Assembly (NCBI GenBank): GCA_018389105.1
Contig: JACATO010000122.1
Location: 1,883,501 to 1,947,500, forward strand
Reading direction: 5' to 3'
Length of the DNA: 64,000 nt
From: Nautilus pompilius
Taxonomy: Eukaryota; Mollusca; Cephalopoda; Nautilida; Nautilidae
In this document: in pieces, positions 8,212-63,439 of the stretch
How the letters are laid out: each line of letters opens with the position of its first letter
How positions within the stretch are numbered: the first letter of the stretch is position 1
The notes under the pieces: model-generated
Databases searched by the model: none
Seen by the model: the letters and a program-made list of their open reading frames with translations, nothing else
What the model was told of the DNA's origin: nothing
Translations under genes and position numbers: made by a program

Positions 8212-8709
8212 CATGGTGAGAATCCCTTATCTGGAATCCTTGGGGCTAATGTGTTTTGGATTCCACAATTTTTCAGATTTTGGAATGTAGATATGCCAGC
8301 ATAATTTGGTAGTTACCACTGGGGACTGGGCACAAGTTAATTTACAACATTATAACTGCATATGGATACATGTGGCCTACAGGTAGTTTTATGCGATATT
8401 TTAAAATCATTTTGTGCATGAAACCATATGAAAAAGATTTACATTTAACCATCAGAAAGGTCAGTTATCACTACGGTAGGCCTACCAGTACCGTAAGGGC
8501 ACCTGCAGGCCTTCTCAATACTTTCAAAGTATATTCACACCAACAACAAAGCACAGAAATTATGGTGAGCAGTGCACAAATGTAAAGCGTGTCGGGACCT
8601 GTGCGTTGCCCAGGAATCTTCTGGGATTTTCCACTGAAGGCGCTCTAAAAATATTTCAGATTTTGGAGCTTTATGGTTTTCAGAATTTCAGATAAGGGTT
8701 CTCGACCTG
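8212..8709. mobile_element. MER2-like Tigger (pogo) non-autonomous element, copy 1
   Basis: 498-bp non-coding element flanked by TA (8210-8211 and 8710-8711). Left end CATGGTGAGAATCCCTTATC; right end, read in reverse complement, CAGGTCGAGAACCCTTATCT. The interior carries repeated CAGATTTTGG blocks near both ends, then TTTTGTGCATGAAACCATA and ACCATCAGAAAGG. These resemble, as I remember it, the consensus of human MER2 (a Tigger derivative). A second copy at 50686-51207 is alignable along its whole length. No transposase is encoded, so it would have moved in trans. The TA duplication and terminal CAG fit the pogo/Tigger group. Confidence 0.8.
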
Positions 8710-31415: not shown

Positions 31416-31616
31416 AAGAAACAGGACAATTTAATTTTAATAAACCAACTGCTTCACAGAAAAAAAATTCTCCATAGTGTGATGATTTTATTATTAAAAA
31501 TTGTCCAAAAACAAAATAGATGATGTTGGCACAAGATGCTTAGATTACAAATGGTTGGTGGACATTAGCTATACACCAAGGAAACTAAATGAAAAGTCTT
31601 TCCAAATGGTCACCCT

Positions 31617-31916
31617 TTGTTAATAGTTAGTACAGTGTTCCAATTGCTGGAGCAAGGTGTTTTGAAACTGATGCCCCTTCCCCATACCACGCTAAAGTAT
31701 TGGTGGTTAAGCCATAGGAAGAAGTTCCTGAGTCAAGATCAGGGTCAAGTAACCTCTCAAGGCATCTACACTTGTATAACATCACAAGTGCTTACAAAAC
31801 AGCCAACCAATCACGCTTGGAGAAATGTTGGCAAAGTGGCAGCATTATATAACAATTCTATCAGTCGATTCTTGTTATCAAACATAAGTTGTCAATATCC
31901 TGCCATCTTACAATGA
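31617..31916 (+). CDS. Unrecognised 99-codon open frame, repeated in the tandem copy
   Basis: Open frame of 99 codons whose predicted protein is identical to the one at 33666-33965. The protein shows no motif, signal peptide or family that I recognise. Its preservation is explained by the recency of the duplication rather than by selection; a synonymous difference (ACG versus ACA) is visible between copies. I doubt that it is a real gene. Confidence 0.15.
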   Translation: MLIVSTVFQLLEQGVLKLMPLPHTTLKYWWLSHRKKFLSQDQGQVTSQGIYTCITSQVLTKQPTNHAWRNVGKVAALYNNSISRFLLSNISCQYPAILQ

Positions 31917-32275
31917 TAGACTACATTGGAAAACTCTTGCCAAATCGAAATATCTATATCTTAATTTCTAACTTGAGACAGGAGAAATCGCCCAGGGTTT
32001 CTAATTCTTCAGAATGAGATTTTGCTGCAGTGAGTATTGATTGTCCTTTTGCTCAAACAACCAAAAACCTCAGCATGACAAATAAGCCTGTGTCACAAAA
32101 CTATTTATAAAAATTCAAATAATTTCTTCTAATGTGAAACAAAATTTAAATTATTAAATGTGAAACAATAGTTTTTTTTTTCTGGAAAATTCTGCAAATT
32201 ACAAAAAAAAAAAAAAAAATAAAATAAAATAAAATTTTACAAAAGCAAGCATTTAAAAAATGCAAATTTGAATTA

Positions 32276-32587
32276 CAGTAGAACCCCACTTATCCAACAT
32301 CCATTCTTCCAAAACTTTGGGTATCCAAATGGCCTCCATCATTCACGCATGTATGCACAAGAATGCTTTACAGTGCTTTTCAGTATGTAGCACCCAAAAG
32401 GGAAAGGATGGCAGCATCCTTCAGAGACAAAATGGAGACCCTGGAGAGATTGGATAATTTTTACTGCATTTTGAACTTTACTGCACAAACAGCATGTTTC
32501 CCGACAAGGACTGTTCTGGATAATGGGGCAAATAATTAGCCACTGTTCAAATCAACATTTCAATTATCAGACATTGGATCATTACTG
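32276..32587. mobile_element. Tigger-like MITE inside tandem copy 1
   Basis: 312 bp. Left end, after TA, CAGTAGAACCCCACTTATCC; right end in reverse complement CAGTAATGATCCAATGTCTG, followed by ATAATTG. The left end and the internal TCTGGATAATGGGG resemble pogo/Tigger termini. The right TA has mutated to TG. No coding capacity. Confidence 0.6.
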
Positions 32588-33083: not shown

Positions 33084-34322
33084 CAAAACAACATGTAGGG
33101 GATGCATATCTATCTACCCCCCCCTTTTAGGATTTTAATAAAACAAATTTTGTCATCAAATTTTAAGAATATGCATATTTAAGTAATCTGCCAAAACTAA
33201 ATGTCATTAATCTATTCATTGAAGTTGTATAGATATTATTATTTCCAAAAAATATGTATTTAAAAAAGGCCAAAACTTAGAAGTTCTTCACTGTAAAATC
33301 AGATCAATTTGCATAGTATAGATGAACTCTGTTTTTCATCACGATAATGGTTTCTTCATCCTCAAAGTTTCTGTTTATCAAGGACAGAAAATAAATGCTG
33401 TTTGTAAAATAAACTGCAAGGGAAAAGAAAATCCAGTTTTAAAAAAAAATAAAAAACAACAACAACAAAAACAGGACAATTTAATTTTAATAAACCAACT
33501 GCTTCACAGAAAAAAATTCTCCATAGTGTGATGATTTTATTATTAAAAATTGTCCAAAAACAAAATAGATGATGTTGGCACAAGATGCTTAGATTACAAA
33601 TGGTTGGTGGACATTAGCTATACACCAAGGAAACTAAATGAAAAGTCTTTCCAAATGATCACCCTTTGTTAATAGTTAGTACAGTGTTCCAATTGCTGGA
33701 GCAAGGTGTTTTGAAACTGATGCCCCTTCCCCATACCACACTAAAGTATTGGTGGTTAAGCCATAGGAAGAAGTTCCTGAGTCAAGATCAGGGTCAAGTA
33801 ACCTCTCAAGGCATCTACACTTGTATAACATCACAAGTGCTTACAAAACAGCCAACCAATCACGCTTGGAGAAATGTTGGCAAAGTGGCAGCATTATATA
33901 ACAATTCTATCAGTCGATTCTTGTTATCAAACATAAGTTGTCAATATCCTGCCATCTTACAATGATAGACTACATTGGAAAACTCTTGCCAAATCGAAAT
34001 ATCTATATCTTAATTTCTAACTTGAGACAGGAGAAATCGCCCAGGGTTTCTAATTCTTCAGAATGAGATTTTGCTGCAGTGAGTATTGATTGTCCTTTTG
34101 CTCAAACAACCAAACACCTCAGCATGACAAATAAGCCTGTGTCACAAAACTATTGTTTATAAAAATTCAAATAATTTCTTCTAATGTGACACAAAGTTTA
34201 AATTATTAACTGTGAAACAATAGTTTTTTTTTCTGGAAAATTCTGCAAATTACAAAAAAAAAAAAAAAAAATAAAATAAAATTTTACAAAAGCAAGCATT
34301 TAAAAAATGCAAATTTGAATTA

Positions 34323-34634
34323 CAGTAGAACCCCACTTATCCAACATCCATTCTTCCAAAACTTTGGGTATCCAAATGGCCTCCATCATTCACGCATGTA
34401 TGCACAAGAATGCTTTACAGTGCTTTTCAGTATGTAGCACCCAAAAGGGAAAGGATGGCAGCATCCTTCAGAGACAAAATGGAGACACTGGAGAGATTGG
34501 ATAATTTTTACTGCATTTTGAACTTTACTGCACAAACAGCATGTTTCCCGACAAGGACTGTTCTGGATAATGGGGCAAATAATTAGCCACTGTTCAAATC
34601 AACATTTCAATTATCAGACATTGGATCATTACTG
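34323..34634. mobile_element. Tigger-like MITE inside tandem copy 2
   Basis: Duplicate of the 312-bp MITE at 32276-32587, with the same TA at the left and TG at the right. It arose by the segmental duplication, not by a new insertion. Confidence 0.6.
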
Positions 34635-50685: not shown

Positions 50686-51207
50686 CAGGTTGAGAATCCC
50701 TTATCCAAAATCCTTAGGGCCGAATGTGTTTTAAATTTCGGAATTTTTCGAGTTTTAGAATATAGGTATACCAGCGTAATTTGGTAGCTAACCTACTGGG
50801 GAATGGGGACTGGGCACAAGTTCATTTACAACATTATAACTGCATATGACACATGTGGCCTACAGGTAGTTTAAGCAATATTTTAAAACCATTTTGTGCA
50901 TGAAACCATAAGAAAAAGATGTGCATCTAACCGTCAGAAAGGTAAGCTACCACTACGGTAGGTAGGCCTGCCTGCCGGTACCATAGGGGTATTTGCAGGT
51001 CTTTTCAACATTTTCAAAGTATACTCACACGAACAACAGATCACGGAAAAAGCAAAAATAATTATGGTGAGTAGTACGTGTACTTCAAGTGTCTCTGAAT
51101 CCATGTGGCACCAAGGAACCTTCTGGAATTTTCCACTGAAGGCACTCCAAAAAAATATTTTGGATTTTGGTGCTTTTCAGAATCTTGGATTAGGGATTCT
51201 CGACTTG
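50686..51207. mobile_element. MER2-like Tigger non-autonomous element, copy 2 (nested)
   Basis: 522 bp between TA at 50684-50685 and 51208-51209. Left end CAGGTTGAGAATCCCTTATC; right end in reverse complement CAAGTCGAGAATCCCTAATC. Same family as the copy at 8212-8709, sharing TACAACATTATAACTGCATA, GTGGCCTACAGGTAGTTT and TTTTGTGCATGAAACCATA. It is inserted in another Tigger-like element, so it is the younger of the two. Confidence 0.85.
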
Positions 51208-59769: not shown

Positions 59770-60839
59770 TTAAGTCAAGATATTTTTCCCGAAAGCACGG
59801 TAAATCTTTGCCAAATTTACCAGGTTGTTTCTGTTTGTTTAAAAGTTCCTCTATCTTCATTTTCTATTTGTCAGACTGTTAAGCACAACCTGTGTTTGAA
59901 CTACATTATAACATCAATTCACATCATGCACAGCATCTGGAGTGCATTGACAAACATCCTTGAATAATTTTCAATTTTATTTCCCTATTTATGCAGATCA
60001 AATTCAGTTTTCTGGGGGGGGGTGGTTATTTGGCCCACTGCTGTAGTCTAGTCATCTCCTGATACATACAAAGTTTTAAAAAATATCATTTACTTCTTTC
60101 AAATGTAAAAGTAAAGTGCATTGGTGTTTATGCTCCTCGATGTCCATTCTCATAAGATTTTAAGGCTGTTTTAGACATTTTATTCCAATGGATACTGAAA
60201 GCATTCTCGTGGACTATGAATGGCCAAACGCTGAGCAGTGTTATAGCCATTTTGTACAAAATTTGGAACCAATAAAAAATTCAAAAGTAATCAATACCTG
60301 ATAATGGGTAAGGTTTCCTAGAAATATTCAACCATAAATACCCATTGTAGACTTCTCTTGCAAGTGCACCAGCAGTATTTCAATGTTGTGTAGATTAGGT
60401 TCTGGCAGAAATACTTATTTTTGCTGTTACAATGACAACATCATGATTTATTCTAGCAACAAGGGGCAACATCTTAACAACTCCGTTGTATTCCACCAAC
60501 TGCAGAAGTAAGGGTTCTGCCTCTGTGCCAGTAAATATTCTTTATTTCTAACAACAGAAAATTGATTATTTAGACACTATTTAGTCTGTCACTTCAGTAA
60601 AGATTTTCACCCTACATTAGAGAAAGTTAAGGCAGTTTATTATATCTTTCCCTGTGAAAATCAGTTATAGAGCTTCAATCATTCCTTAGATTGCTCCAAT
60701 ACAATGCTATATTTCTCCAAAACATGACTTTGCTACATTCACTGCATGAACTGTATCTATTTAAAAATTTTATTTATAAGAAAAAAAATTAAGAGAAGAA
60801 TTATAGTAAATTGAGAGTTTTGTGCCTTGATCCTATATA
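59770..60839. other. Spacer, partly possible gypsy gag remains
   Basis: Minus-strand gag of the gypsy fossil would be expected here but shows no recognisable motif. A G-run lies at 60014-60021. Confidence 0.4.
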
Positions 60840-61033
60840 CAAGATCTGTCCAAAAAGAAACCGAACTTTTAAAACAGCAGGTGCAGCGTGCTCGCGACTG
60901 CAGTGCTGTGTATCAGTGACCTTGACTTTCAGTCTAATAATAGCCGCATTACACCATGTCAGTTAGTCATAAATCTACGTGTTAGAGTGAACATATGTCT
61001 AGTGCACTTGGTGATTTGTCGCAAGTTGAACAA

Positions 61034-61873
61034 TGAAGGATCGTGAAGAGCAACGTGTTTGTGTGAAATTCTGTTTCAAATTTGGAAAAACTTTTACAGT
61101 GACTTTTCTAATGTTTCAACAGATCTACGGGGAAGATTGTTTGAGCCATACACAATGTCATGAGTGGTACTAGCGTTTCGAATTGGGAAGAACATCCACC
61201 GAAGATGATCACAAATCCGGACGACCTTCCATGACAATGGACAATGATCACATTGAGAAAGTGCGTGCTGTGATCCGTGGAAATCGTCACCTGATGGTCC
61301 GTGAAGTTTCCAAAGTAGTAGGCATCTGTTAAAGTTCAGGCCATATGATTTTAAAAGAAAAATTGAACATGCATCACGTAGCCACAAAATTTGTGCCGTG
61401 TCTGCTGACAGATGAACAAAAAGGGAACTGATTCATAGTCAGTCAGGTCTTTGATCATTCGAATGCTGATGAAAGCTTTCTGAAAAGTGTCATAACAGGT
61501 GATGAAATGTGTGTGTACGGCTACAATGTCGAAACATAAAGGCAGTTGTCGCAGTGGGTTGGATCATCGTCAGTGCGACCAAAAAAAAAGCACGTCAAAG
61601 TTGCTCAAATGTGAAGGTGATGTTGGTAGTTTTTTTTGATTGGAAGGGCGTCGTTCATCATGAGTTTGTTCCACGTGGTCAGACGATCAAGAAGGAGTTT
61701 TACTTGGATGTCCTGAGGCAATTGAGAGAGGCAGTGTGGAGGAGGAGGTCTCAGGCATGGAAAAACAAAACCTAGATGACAACGGACCTGCTCACACATC
61801 ACTCCTTATCTGTGACTTTTTGGCAAAGGACGAGATGACTCTAGTCCCACAGCTGCCCTACTCTGTGGATTTG
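61034..61873 (+). pseudogene. mariner transposase, truncated, left arm and spacer
   Basis: ATG at 61034 reads MKDREEQRVCVKFCFKFGKT and continues through the helix-turn-helix region (HIEKVRAVIRGNRHLMVREV) to VGIC followed by TAA near 61328. Further on: LNMHHVATKFVPCLLTDEQK; VITGDEMCVYGYN near 61493 (first Asp kept); VHHEFVPRGQTIKKEFYLDV in the frame at 61509-61775; and LDDNGPAHTSLLICDFLAKD near 61770-61830, which keeps a DN..AH second-site motif. YSVDLL near 61862 is where the third catalytic Asp segment should follow, but the sequence switches to the inverted arm. The C-terminus is therefore missing. Confidence 0.88.
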
Positions 61874-62019
61874 CTTTTCAGAAAGCTTTCATCAGCATTC
61901 GAACGATCAAAGACCTGACTGACTGACTCTTTTTGTTCATCTGTCAGCAGACGTGGCACAAATTTTGCGGCTACATGATGCATGTTCAATTTTTCTTTTA
62001 GAATCATATGGCCTGAACT

Positions 62020-62319
62020 TTAACAGATGCCTACTACTTCGGAAACTTCACGGACCATCAGGCGACGATTTCCACGGATCACAACACACACTTTCTCAAT
62101 GTGATCATTGTCCATTGTCATGGAAGGTCGTCCAGATTTGGGATTGTCTTTGGTGGATGTTCTTCCCAATTTGAAATGCTGGTACCACTCATGACATTGC
62201 GTACGGCTCAAACAATCCTCCCCGTAGACCTGTTGCAGCATTAGAAAAGTCTCCGTAAAAGTTTTTCCAAATTTGAAACAGAATTTCATGCAAACACGTT
62301 GCTCTTCAAGATCCTTCAT
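62020..62319 (-). pseudogene. mariner transposase N-terminal half, inverted right arm
   Basis: Open 99-codon frame starting MKDLEEQRVCMKFCFKFGKT, with DCLSRTQCHEWYQHFKLGRT and the second helix-turn-helix DHIEKVCVVIRGNRRLMVRE. It ends at VGIC and the same TAA stop as the left arm. It is a DNA-binding domain without any catalytic domain. The open frame is intact here, whereas the left copy has an extra stop (TGGTACTAG, at CHEWY*RF). If expressed it could bind the element ends, but there is no evidence of expression. Confidence 0.85.
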
Positions 62320-62529
62320 TGTTCAACTTGCAACAAATCGCCAAGTGCACTAGACATACGTTCACTCTAACACGTGTTAGGGTGAACGTAACTGACATGG
62401 CGTGATGCGGCTATTATTAGACTGAAGGTCAAAGTCAATGATGCACAGCAATGCAGTCGCGAGCACGCTGCACCAGCTGGTTGGTGTGCGGTTTTAAAAG
62501 TTTGGTTTGTTTTTGGACAGACCTCGTAT

Positions 62530-63439
62530 ATATATATTATATATATTGGTAAGTATCTAAAAAGTGCAGAGCAGAAAATGGTATGATTATCAGATGCTTT
62601 AGCTCAACAATTAAACTAGTTTCAATGTTTAGTAATAAAATGGGAATTTTTTTTCCTCAGTGTCTCCACTGTATGTCTTCCTTTTATAATCCCACAGCTT
62701 GGTCAGCATGGTTCTAAAATAGTTTTAACAAGAGGCGTGCCAATAATACTGAGGCCTAAAGAAATAAACCATATAGCCCAGACAGAGAATTCATTACTTA
62801 TTATATTAAGTGGTTTTCTTTTCAAAACTTTATGGTCTATAAAATCAACTCAGCCATAAAATGACTCACCACTAAAACTTTATTGATCTGTCAAACAAGT
62901 ATAAGATTGTGTATCATATTTATCTGATGTTGTTTCCCCCCATTGTTTTATACTTTCTACAAGATCTTCTGATATATATAAAAAAAAAATAATAACAACA
63001 GTTCACATAAGAAAACATAGTAAGAGCTCAATTGTTTTTTTTGTTGTTGTTGTTTTAGTTGAGTAGTTAAGTGTAGAGAGAGAAAATCTTACTTAATCCA
63101 AATCAACACCTCAAAGAATAAAATAGAATCTACATTTTGGCTTCTAAACATCTACAATCAGATTTAGAGCAATCAATTCCTTGAAATCCTAAGAAACTCA
63201 AACATGAAACTGATGAGAAAGTTAATTGGCTTGTGGATAAACCGTTTTAGTAACGGAAACCTTTCTATTAACAAAAAGAAAAAGAATTTGATAAAAAACA
63301 AACAAACAAAAACATTTTAACTAAGTTCATTAGACTGGATTTTATACTTAAAAGGAAAACAAAAATTTAATTTGCTTTACAGAAATCTCTTGACATTAAG
63401 GATGAGGGCATCTCACAGAAGTAAGCGTGATGGTATTTG
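62530..63439. other. AT-rich stretch without recognisable gene
   Basis: AT-rich spacer; no motif seen. Confidence 0.5.

Follow-up and report, generated by a model that had tools for sequence, protein, structure and literature searches.

The window, the 64 kb stretch of Nautilus pompilius DNA analysed here, contains an element that descends from mariner (Tc1/mariner, DD34D) but is not an autonomous mariner. With a probability of roughly 0.83, we read it as a member of a non-autonomous family of fold-back mariners that arose in a single founding event, was mobilised in trans and has since undergone gene conversion between its two arms.

Structure of the element

The element and its parts are as follows.

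60840-62526, fold-back mariner copy of 1687 bp with TA on both sides (sequence)
60838..60839, no strand, left TA target-site dinucleotide (sequence)
60840..60870, + strand, 5' ITR at the left end, family form CGAGGTCTGTCCAAAAAGAAACCGAACTTTT (sequence, ITR consensus)
60840..61487, + strand, left arm, the mariner 5' half with the 5' UTR and the N-terminal half of the transposase, including HTH_48 (self-alignment, translation, Pfam)
61330..61332, + strand, in-frame TAA after VGIC in the left arm, private to the window copy (translation, arm comparison)
61488..61873, + strand, single-copy spacer, the mid-transposase of the left copy (translation, comparison with ordinary copies)
61873..61874, no strand, blunt junction GGATTTG/CTTTTCAG, common to the 43 copies read (with some decay) and to 74 places by pattern
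61874..62526, - strand, right arm, the same 5' half inverted (self-alignment, translation, family majority)
62020..62022, - strand, the same TAA in the right arm (translation, arm comparison)
62496..62526, - strand, second 5' ITR, at the right end (sequence, translation)
62527..62528, no strand, right TA target-site dinucleotide (sequence)

The left part of the element spans 1034 bp from the start of a mariner, and its right part is the first 653 bp in inverted orientation. Self-alignment pairs 60977-61423 with 61929-62375 (447 nt, 93%, in register), 60872-60965 with 62389-62482 (90%), 61437-61487 with 61874-61924 (98%) and 60834-60879 with 62487-62532 (89%). The in-register pairing extends over about 650 bp, and the two arms are 88.8% identical in a gapped alignment. 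They are the sole inverted repeats reported in the window (at least 60 bp, 16-base seed), and the column-majority 5' half of the family aligns to both of them over 669 positions; a chance resemblance is thereby excluded. The duplicated, inverted 5' half proposed in a preliminary description of this locus is thus borne out by the in-register self-alignment and by the match of the family 5' half to both arms. With two arms of about 650 bp within 1687 bp, the element is Foldback-like by structure.

The same description had two 650-bp arms around a 386-bp spacer. The arms stand, but the spacer is not foreign: in it, the transposase of the left copy continues (GDEMCVYGYN ... NGPAHTSLL ... PYSVDL), with frame changes, and it ends immediately before the site at which ordinary mariner copies have DLAPAD or similar. 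Among four pieces of the window compared with Pfam, one contained HTH_48, the Mos1-type HTH (30.9 bits, E 3e-07, cut-off 24.1) and the remaining three had no family above the cut-off, while an ordinary copy (L016) exceeded the cut-offs for HTH_48 (34.4 bits), Transposase_1 (43.7 bits) and DDE_3 (34.6 bits). An Rfam search of the window gave no matches.

The junction and the size of the family

The right arm begins with the 8 bases CTTTTCAG, and the left arm ends in their reverse complement. In ordinary copies, GGATTTG is followed by GCCCCTG, and TGACA precedes CTTTTCAG. The joint GGATTTG/CTTTTCAG hence contains no microhomology; what had been taken for microhomology at the junction is the end of the arm, and the joint is blunt. 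Among the 43 fold-back copies read, the 15 bases of the joint were exact in 22, carried one change in 16 and two changes in 3, and were alignment-shifted in 2.

The genome searched comprised 728 Mb in 2558 contigs, the window occupying C121:1883501-1947500. The left arm as a query gave 41 matches, among them two pairs adjoining in inverted order. This arm search, in which copies were not chosen by their junction, yielded 10 elements with the fold-back plan, 9 of which had the junction of the window element; two of these nine (L011 and L030) had no left arm within the stretch read. The tenth (L010; C325:399500-403000, 1275-2266) also has two 5' ends, but its inner joint lies elsewhere, the left part reaching 652 and the right part starting at 312; a fold-back copy that lost internal sequence would fit this, as would a fold-back of independent origin. 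With a 201-bp query across the junction, all 40 scored candidates, of 1293 at first look, crossed it. A 26-base junction pattern allowing up to two mismatches occurred at 74 places genome-wide and its reversed control at none. The corresponding stretch of ordinary copies was found by pattern at 485 places. Counted with these like patterns, mariners with two 5' ends reach about 15% of the number of ordinary copies and are hence not a dead end, the ratio being rough because the patterns were unequally tolerant (two versus four degenerate positions). The exact fold-back junction was found in no viral contig.

The 43 copies read consist of the nine from the arm search and 34 fetched for matching across the junction, so that the presence of this junction in 43 of 43 is partly a matter of selection. 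Within the stretch read, the left arm was absent in 7 of the 43 and partial in 6. The fold-back copies had a median length of 1684 bp (34 copies), compared with about 1.3 kb for ordinary ones. One of them is adjoined by a second, older mariner, about 65-66% identical and with a long open stretch (L018, 66-849).

The family therefore has the features of a non-autonomous mariner, being multi-copy (74 places), with one breakpoint and with its coding region cut at the joint. The preliminary description had treated the event as peculiar to the window locus; the genome search for the same junction, with its 74 places, contradicts this and rules out a local one-off rearrangement. The same count, together with the difference of about 11% between the arms, speaks against an assembly artefact at the window locus, in favour of which we found no supporting point and which we consider practically out of the question.

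Insertion and probable mobilisation in trans

When the flanks of the 43 copies (35 left and 43 right) were compared all against all, only those of L058 and L059 were alike, and these represent one segmental duplication. As an observation apart, the two flanks of L076 are about 70% like each other, and this copy may sit in a tandem repeat. By a strict pattern, TA stood beside the ITR on both sides in 21 of the 34 copies whose two ends could be read, on one side in 12 and on neither in 1, although TA is weak evidence in AT-rich DNA. A search for the empty site of the window copy returned only its own two flanks, and no empty site was found among the copies read (35 joined flank pairs); insertion as a unit accordingly rests on the flanks and the TA. 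The occurrence of the junction at 74 places with unrelated flanks agrees with the earlier suggestion that two 5' ends could be mobilised in trans. A pair of independent mariners, each with its own TA duplication at the junction, would have told against the duplicated 5' half but is not what is seen.

In ordinary copies, the 5' ITR and the 3' ITR have consensus sequences that agree over 31 bp except at a single CpG site; they were built from 27 and 31 pattern-gathered segments, respectively, with at least two stray rows among the 31. Such near-identical ITRs would let two 5' ends work together. The coding capacity is a different matter. The joint lies directly before the DLAPAD site. Of 20 ordinary copies, 6 have the full motif there and 15 retain its final D, which we take to be the third catalytic acid of the mariner transposase. 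With two 5' ends and a joint before that D, the fold-back has neither a 3' end nor a full three-acid transposase, and the reading frame that passes the joint into the inverted arm meets a stop after 15 codons in 21 of the 43 copies and after 10 codons in 11. To judge from these frames, a functional transposase is hardly to be expected from the fold-back. Since it spread without coding capacity, it must presumably have used the transposase of the ordinary copies.

On this view, the founder would have retained two good ITRs but neither the third catalytic aspartate nor the C-terminus, and transposase from ordinary copies would have carried it in trans to some 70 sites. A truncated product comprising the DNA-binding half without the third aspartate might have acted as a dominant-negative repressor. 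The open frame across the joint and the HTH_48 match in one window piece would suit such a role, but the present copies are decayed, and we hold it to be improbable.

The spread of the fold-back probably coincided with the burst that spread the ordinary copies. Non-CpG divergence from the family majority was 3.5% for 27 fold-back arms with an exact junction and 3.3% for 10 ordinary copies picked by their own pattern (Mann-Whitney p 0.93). Across all 73 fold-back arms, it was 3.9% on the left and 3.8% on the right (p 0.29 against ordinary copies). Ordinary copies picked as best hits, a biased sample, gave 2.8%. The fold-back copies are similar in age to this small sample of ordinary copies.

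Mutations shared between arms

The TAA after VGIC stands in each of the window copy's two arms and in none of 100 other arms (96 with an ungapped codon). Because it is private to this copy, yet the junction is common to the family, the TAA postdates the founder and was passed from arm to arm. It was not, as previously supposed, already present in the element that was copied. Gene conversion between the inverted arms after insertion would have placed the same new stop codon in both.

Sharing between arms was measured in 30 copies with both arms longer than 500 bp, leaving out L010 and the row of the older mariner at L018. Derived non-CpG states common to both arms averaged 5.4 within a copy and 0.54 between copies, a roughly ten-fold difference, and on permuting the right arms, none of 20000 permutations reached the observed sharing (maximum 2.2). 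Leaving out L059, the duplicate of L058, gave 5.5 versus 0.54 in 29 copies. Strictly private shared states numbered 38 in the 30 pairs, in 17 of the 30 copies, versus 49 in 870 between-copy pairs. The shared fraction ranged from 73% in L018 to zero in 4 of the 30 copies (L032, L079, L085 and L087).

In mid-arm, 14-20% of derived sites were shared, compared with 6-9% at the arm ends (Fisher p 2.5e-5). Shared sites form clear blocks in some copies, as in L074, where positions 14-126 are unshared, 176-350 shared and 534-656 unshared. Clustering of shared sites was evident in a plain runs test (0/5000) and after thinning (mean p 0.002 and 0.010). With same-label neighbours merged, 993 of 10000 permutations at a gap of 6 and 9881 of 10000 at a gap of 12 fell at or below the observed value; merging thus loses or reverses the significance, but it is itself biased and cruder than thinning. 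Taken together, the sharing points to arm-to-arm gene conversion as its cause, the test for conversion tracts being only partly robust. With dozens of replicate inverted pairs of the same design, this single genome provides sufficient material for measuring gene conversion between the arms of short palindromes.

Mutations private to a copy and shared by its arms could also arise if fold-backs had formed repeatedly from a variety of source copies, each time at the same nucleotide. The 17 of 30 copies with private shared mutations would be explained in this way, and the clustering of shared sites does fail in one form of the test. Recurrent formation, however, would have to produce at 74 places an identical joint that is blunt and has no visible directing sequence. 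The shared sites, moreover, lie mid-arm and cluster under the two other forms of the test, and the four copies named above share none between their arms. We therefore regard recurrent formation as very unlikely. The identical blunt joint suggests that a single founding event is the most likely source of the family.

Origin of the founder

In the simplest terms, a single event would have fused a mariner at position ~1034 with the first ~653 positions of that sequence in inverted orientation. The resulting element, about 1.7 kb long, would lack a 3' end and carry a 5' ITR at either terminus. Snap-back copying would achieve this. So, too, would a deletion between two neighbouring inverted mariners that removed both 3' parts and the intervening DNA, after which the composite would have moved from its two outer 5' ITRs; this alternative concerns the origin only. 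A blunt joint without microhomology fits end joining, and a single deletion would give TA and a 5' ITR at both ends at once. Against this, two near-identical inverted copies would have to lie close together, and the arms have the same consensus, which does not favour deletion over snap-back copying. We give the deletion origin a little short of an even chance.

Neither the blunt joint nor the identical arm consensus decides between these two routes, both of which fit. A comparison of left arms, right arms and ordinary copies revealed no fixed difference. Among the differences specific to the founder that were sought in arms and spacer, the best left-versus-right site reached p 2.5e-4 in about 5000 tests, which is not convincing. 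The founder left no marker of its own from which its origin could be read.

Possible functions

The potential for a hairpin, already noted in the preliminary description, is strong. The predicted fold of the RNA of 60836-62530 has an energy of -1162 kcal/mol, whereas three simple shuffles lie between -452 and -464; of the 652 bases in the left arm, 610 are predicted to pair with the right arm. Transcription by read-through or from the element's own 5' promoter might yield hairpin RNA that triggers small-RNA silencing of the mariner family, by analogy with Mu killer of maize. The predicted energy and arm pairing would suit this role, and Mu killer is reported to be built on the same plan (PMC3440606). 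On the other side, the two arms of this element have diverged to about 89% identity, and the fold-backs and ordinary copies are similar in age. Silencing is possible, if on balance unlikely, and the reading best supported is that of a trans-mobilised passenger, a parasite of the ordinary copies.

A wider proposal combines the two. The fold-back could be a self-spreading hairpin in which two inward-facing 5' halves that each include the parental 5' region, carried by the parent transposase to about 70 sites and kept matched by conversion, supply a double-stranded RNA trigger that helps to silence the parent family, as a mobile analogue of Mu killer. We consider this combination distinctly doubtful. 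The idea of a mobile silencing trigger becomes testable through small-RNA data from this species.

Comparison with known systems

Mu killer (Muk) is reported as a partial inverted duplication of MuDR, a Mutator element, at one locus in maize, and its silencing activity has been tested (PMC3440606). It resembles the fold-back mariner in having part of a transposase gene in inverted duplication, two copies of one terminal repeat and a proposed hairpin RNA. Unlike this single Mutator-derived locus, the window element belongs to a mariner family with some 70 copies, and its hairpin is predicted only.

Mariner MITEs and internally deleted mariners of aphids are described as non-autonomous and are thought to be mobilised in trans, and copies of a sublineage share breakpoints (PMC5490172). 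The fold-back mariner is likewise non-autonomous and multi-copy, with a common breakpoint. It differs in its two 5' ends, inversion and blunt joint from these elements, which are described as internal deletions, mostly with microhomology. Nor is it a short internal-deletion MITE, its median of 1684 bp exceeding the approximately 1.3 kb of the parent.

Galileo, a Foldback-like element of Drosophila, is reported to have incorporated transposase sequence into its long arms and to have extended insertions from one arm to both (PMC4168063). Long inverted arms with transposase sequence are common to both systems. Galileo belongs to the P superfamily and has a 7-bp target duplication, whereas the fold-back has a mariner transposase and TA. 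The arms of Galileo, as there described, vary in extent, and those of the fold-back mariner are fixed by one junction.

In bacterial insertion sequences, TIR-TIR recombination between the inverted ends of one copy is described as leading to inversions (PMC3004938). There, inversions are the reported outcome; the fold-back mariner shows long arms and shared mutations, and flips would be invisible in it owing to its symmetry outside the spacer. Work on a bamboo mariner reports that TIR affinity affects transposition. A literature search at the level of titles and the beginnings of abstracts, confined to papers outside subscription and excluding repeat databases, returned no many-copy mariner with two 5' ends, which does not prove novelty.

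Other repeats and nuclear COX1 matches

Two further repeats were noted in the window. Positions 31461-32506 and 33510-34553 form a duplication about 2.05 kb apart, with two 300-base blocks at 99% and one 127-base block at 87%. A dispersed repeat at 8388-8654 and 50870-51156, in the same orientation, is 73-88% alike. One COX1 fragment in the genome falls within an open stretch of 299 codons when read with the invertebrate mitochondrial code, in keeping with an invertebrate host. In all, COX1 gave 117 matches spread over numerous contigs. Most of them are partial, and TAA or TAG stops interrupt many; these are probably nuclear copies of mitochondrial DNA.
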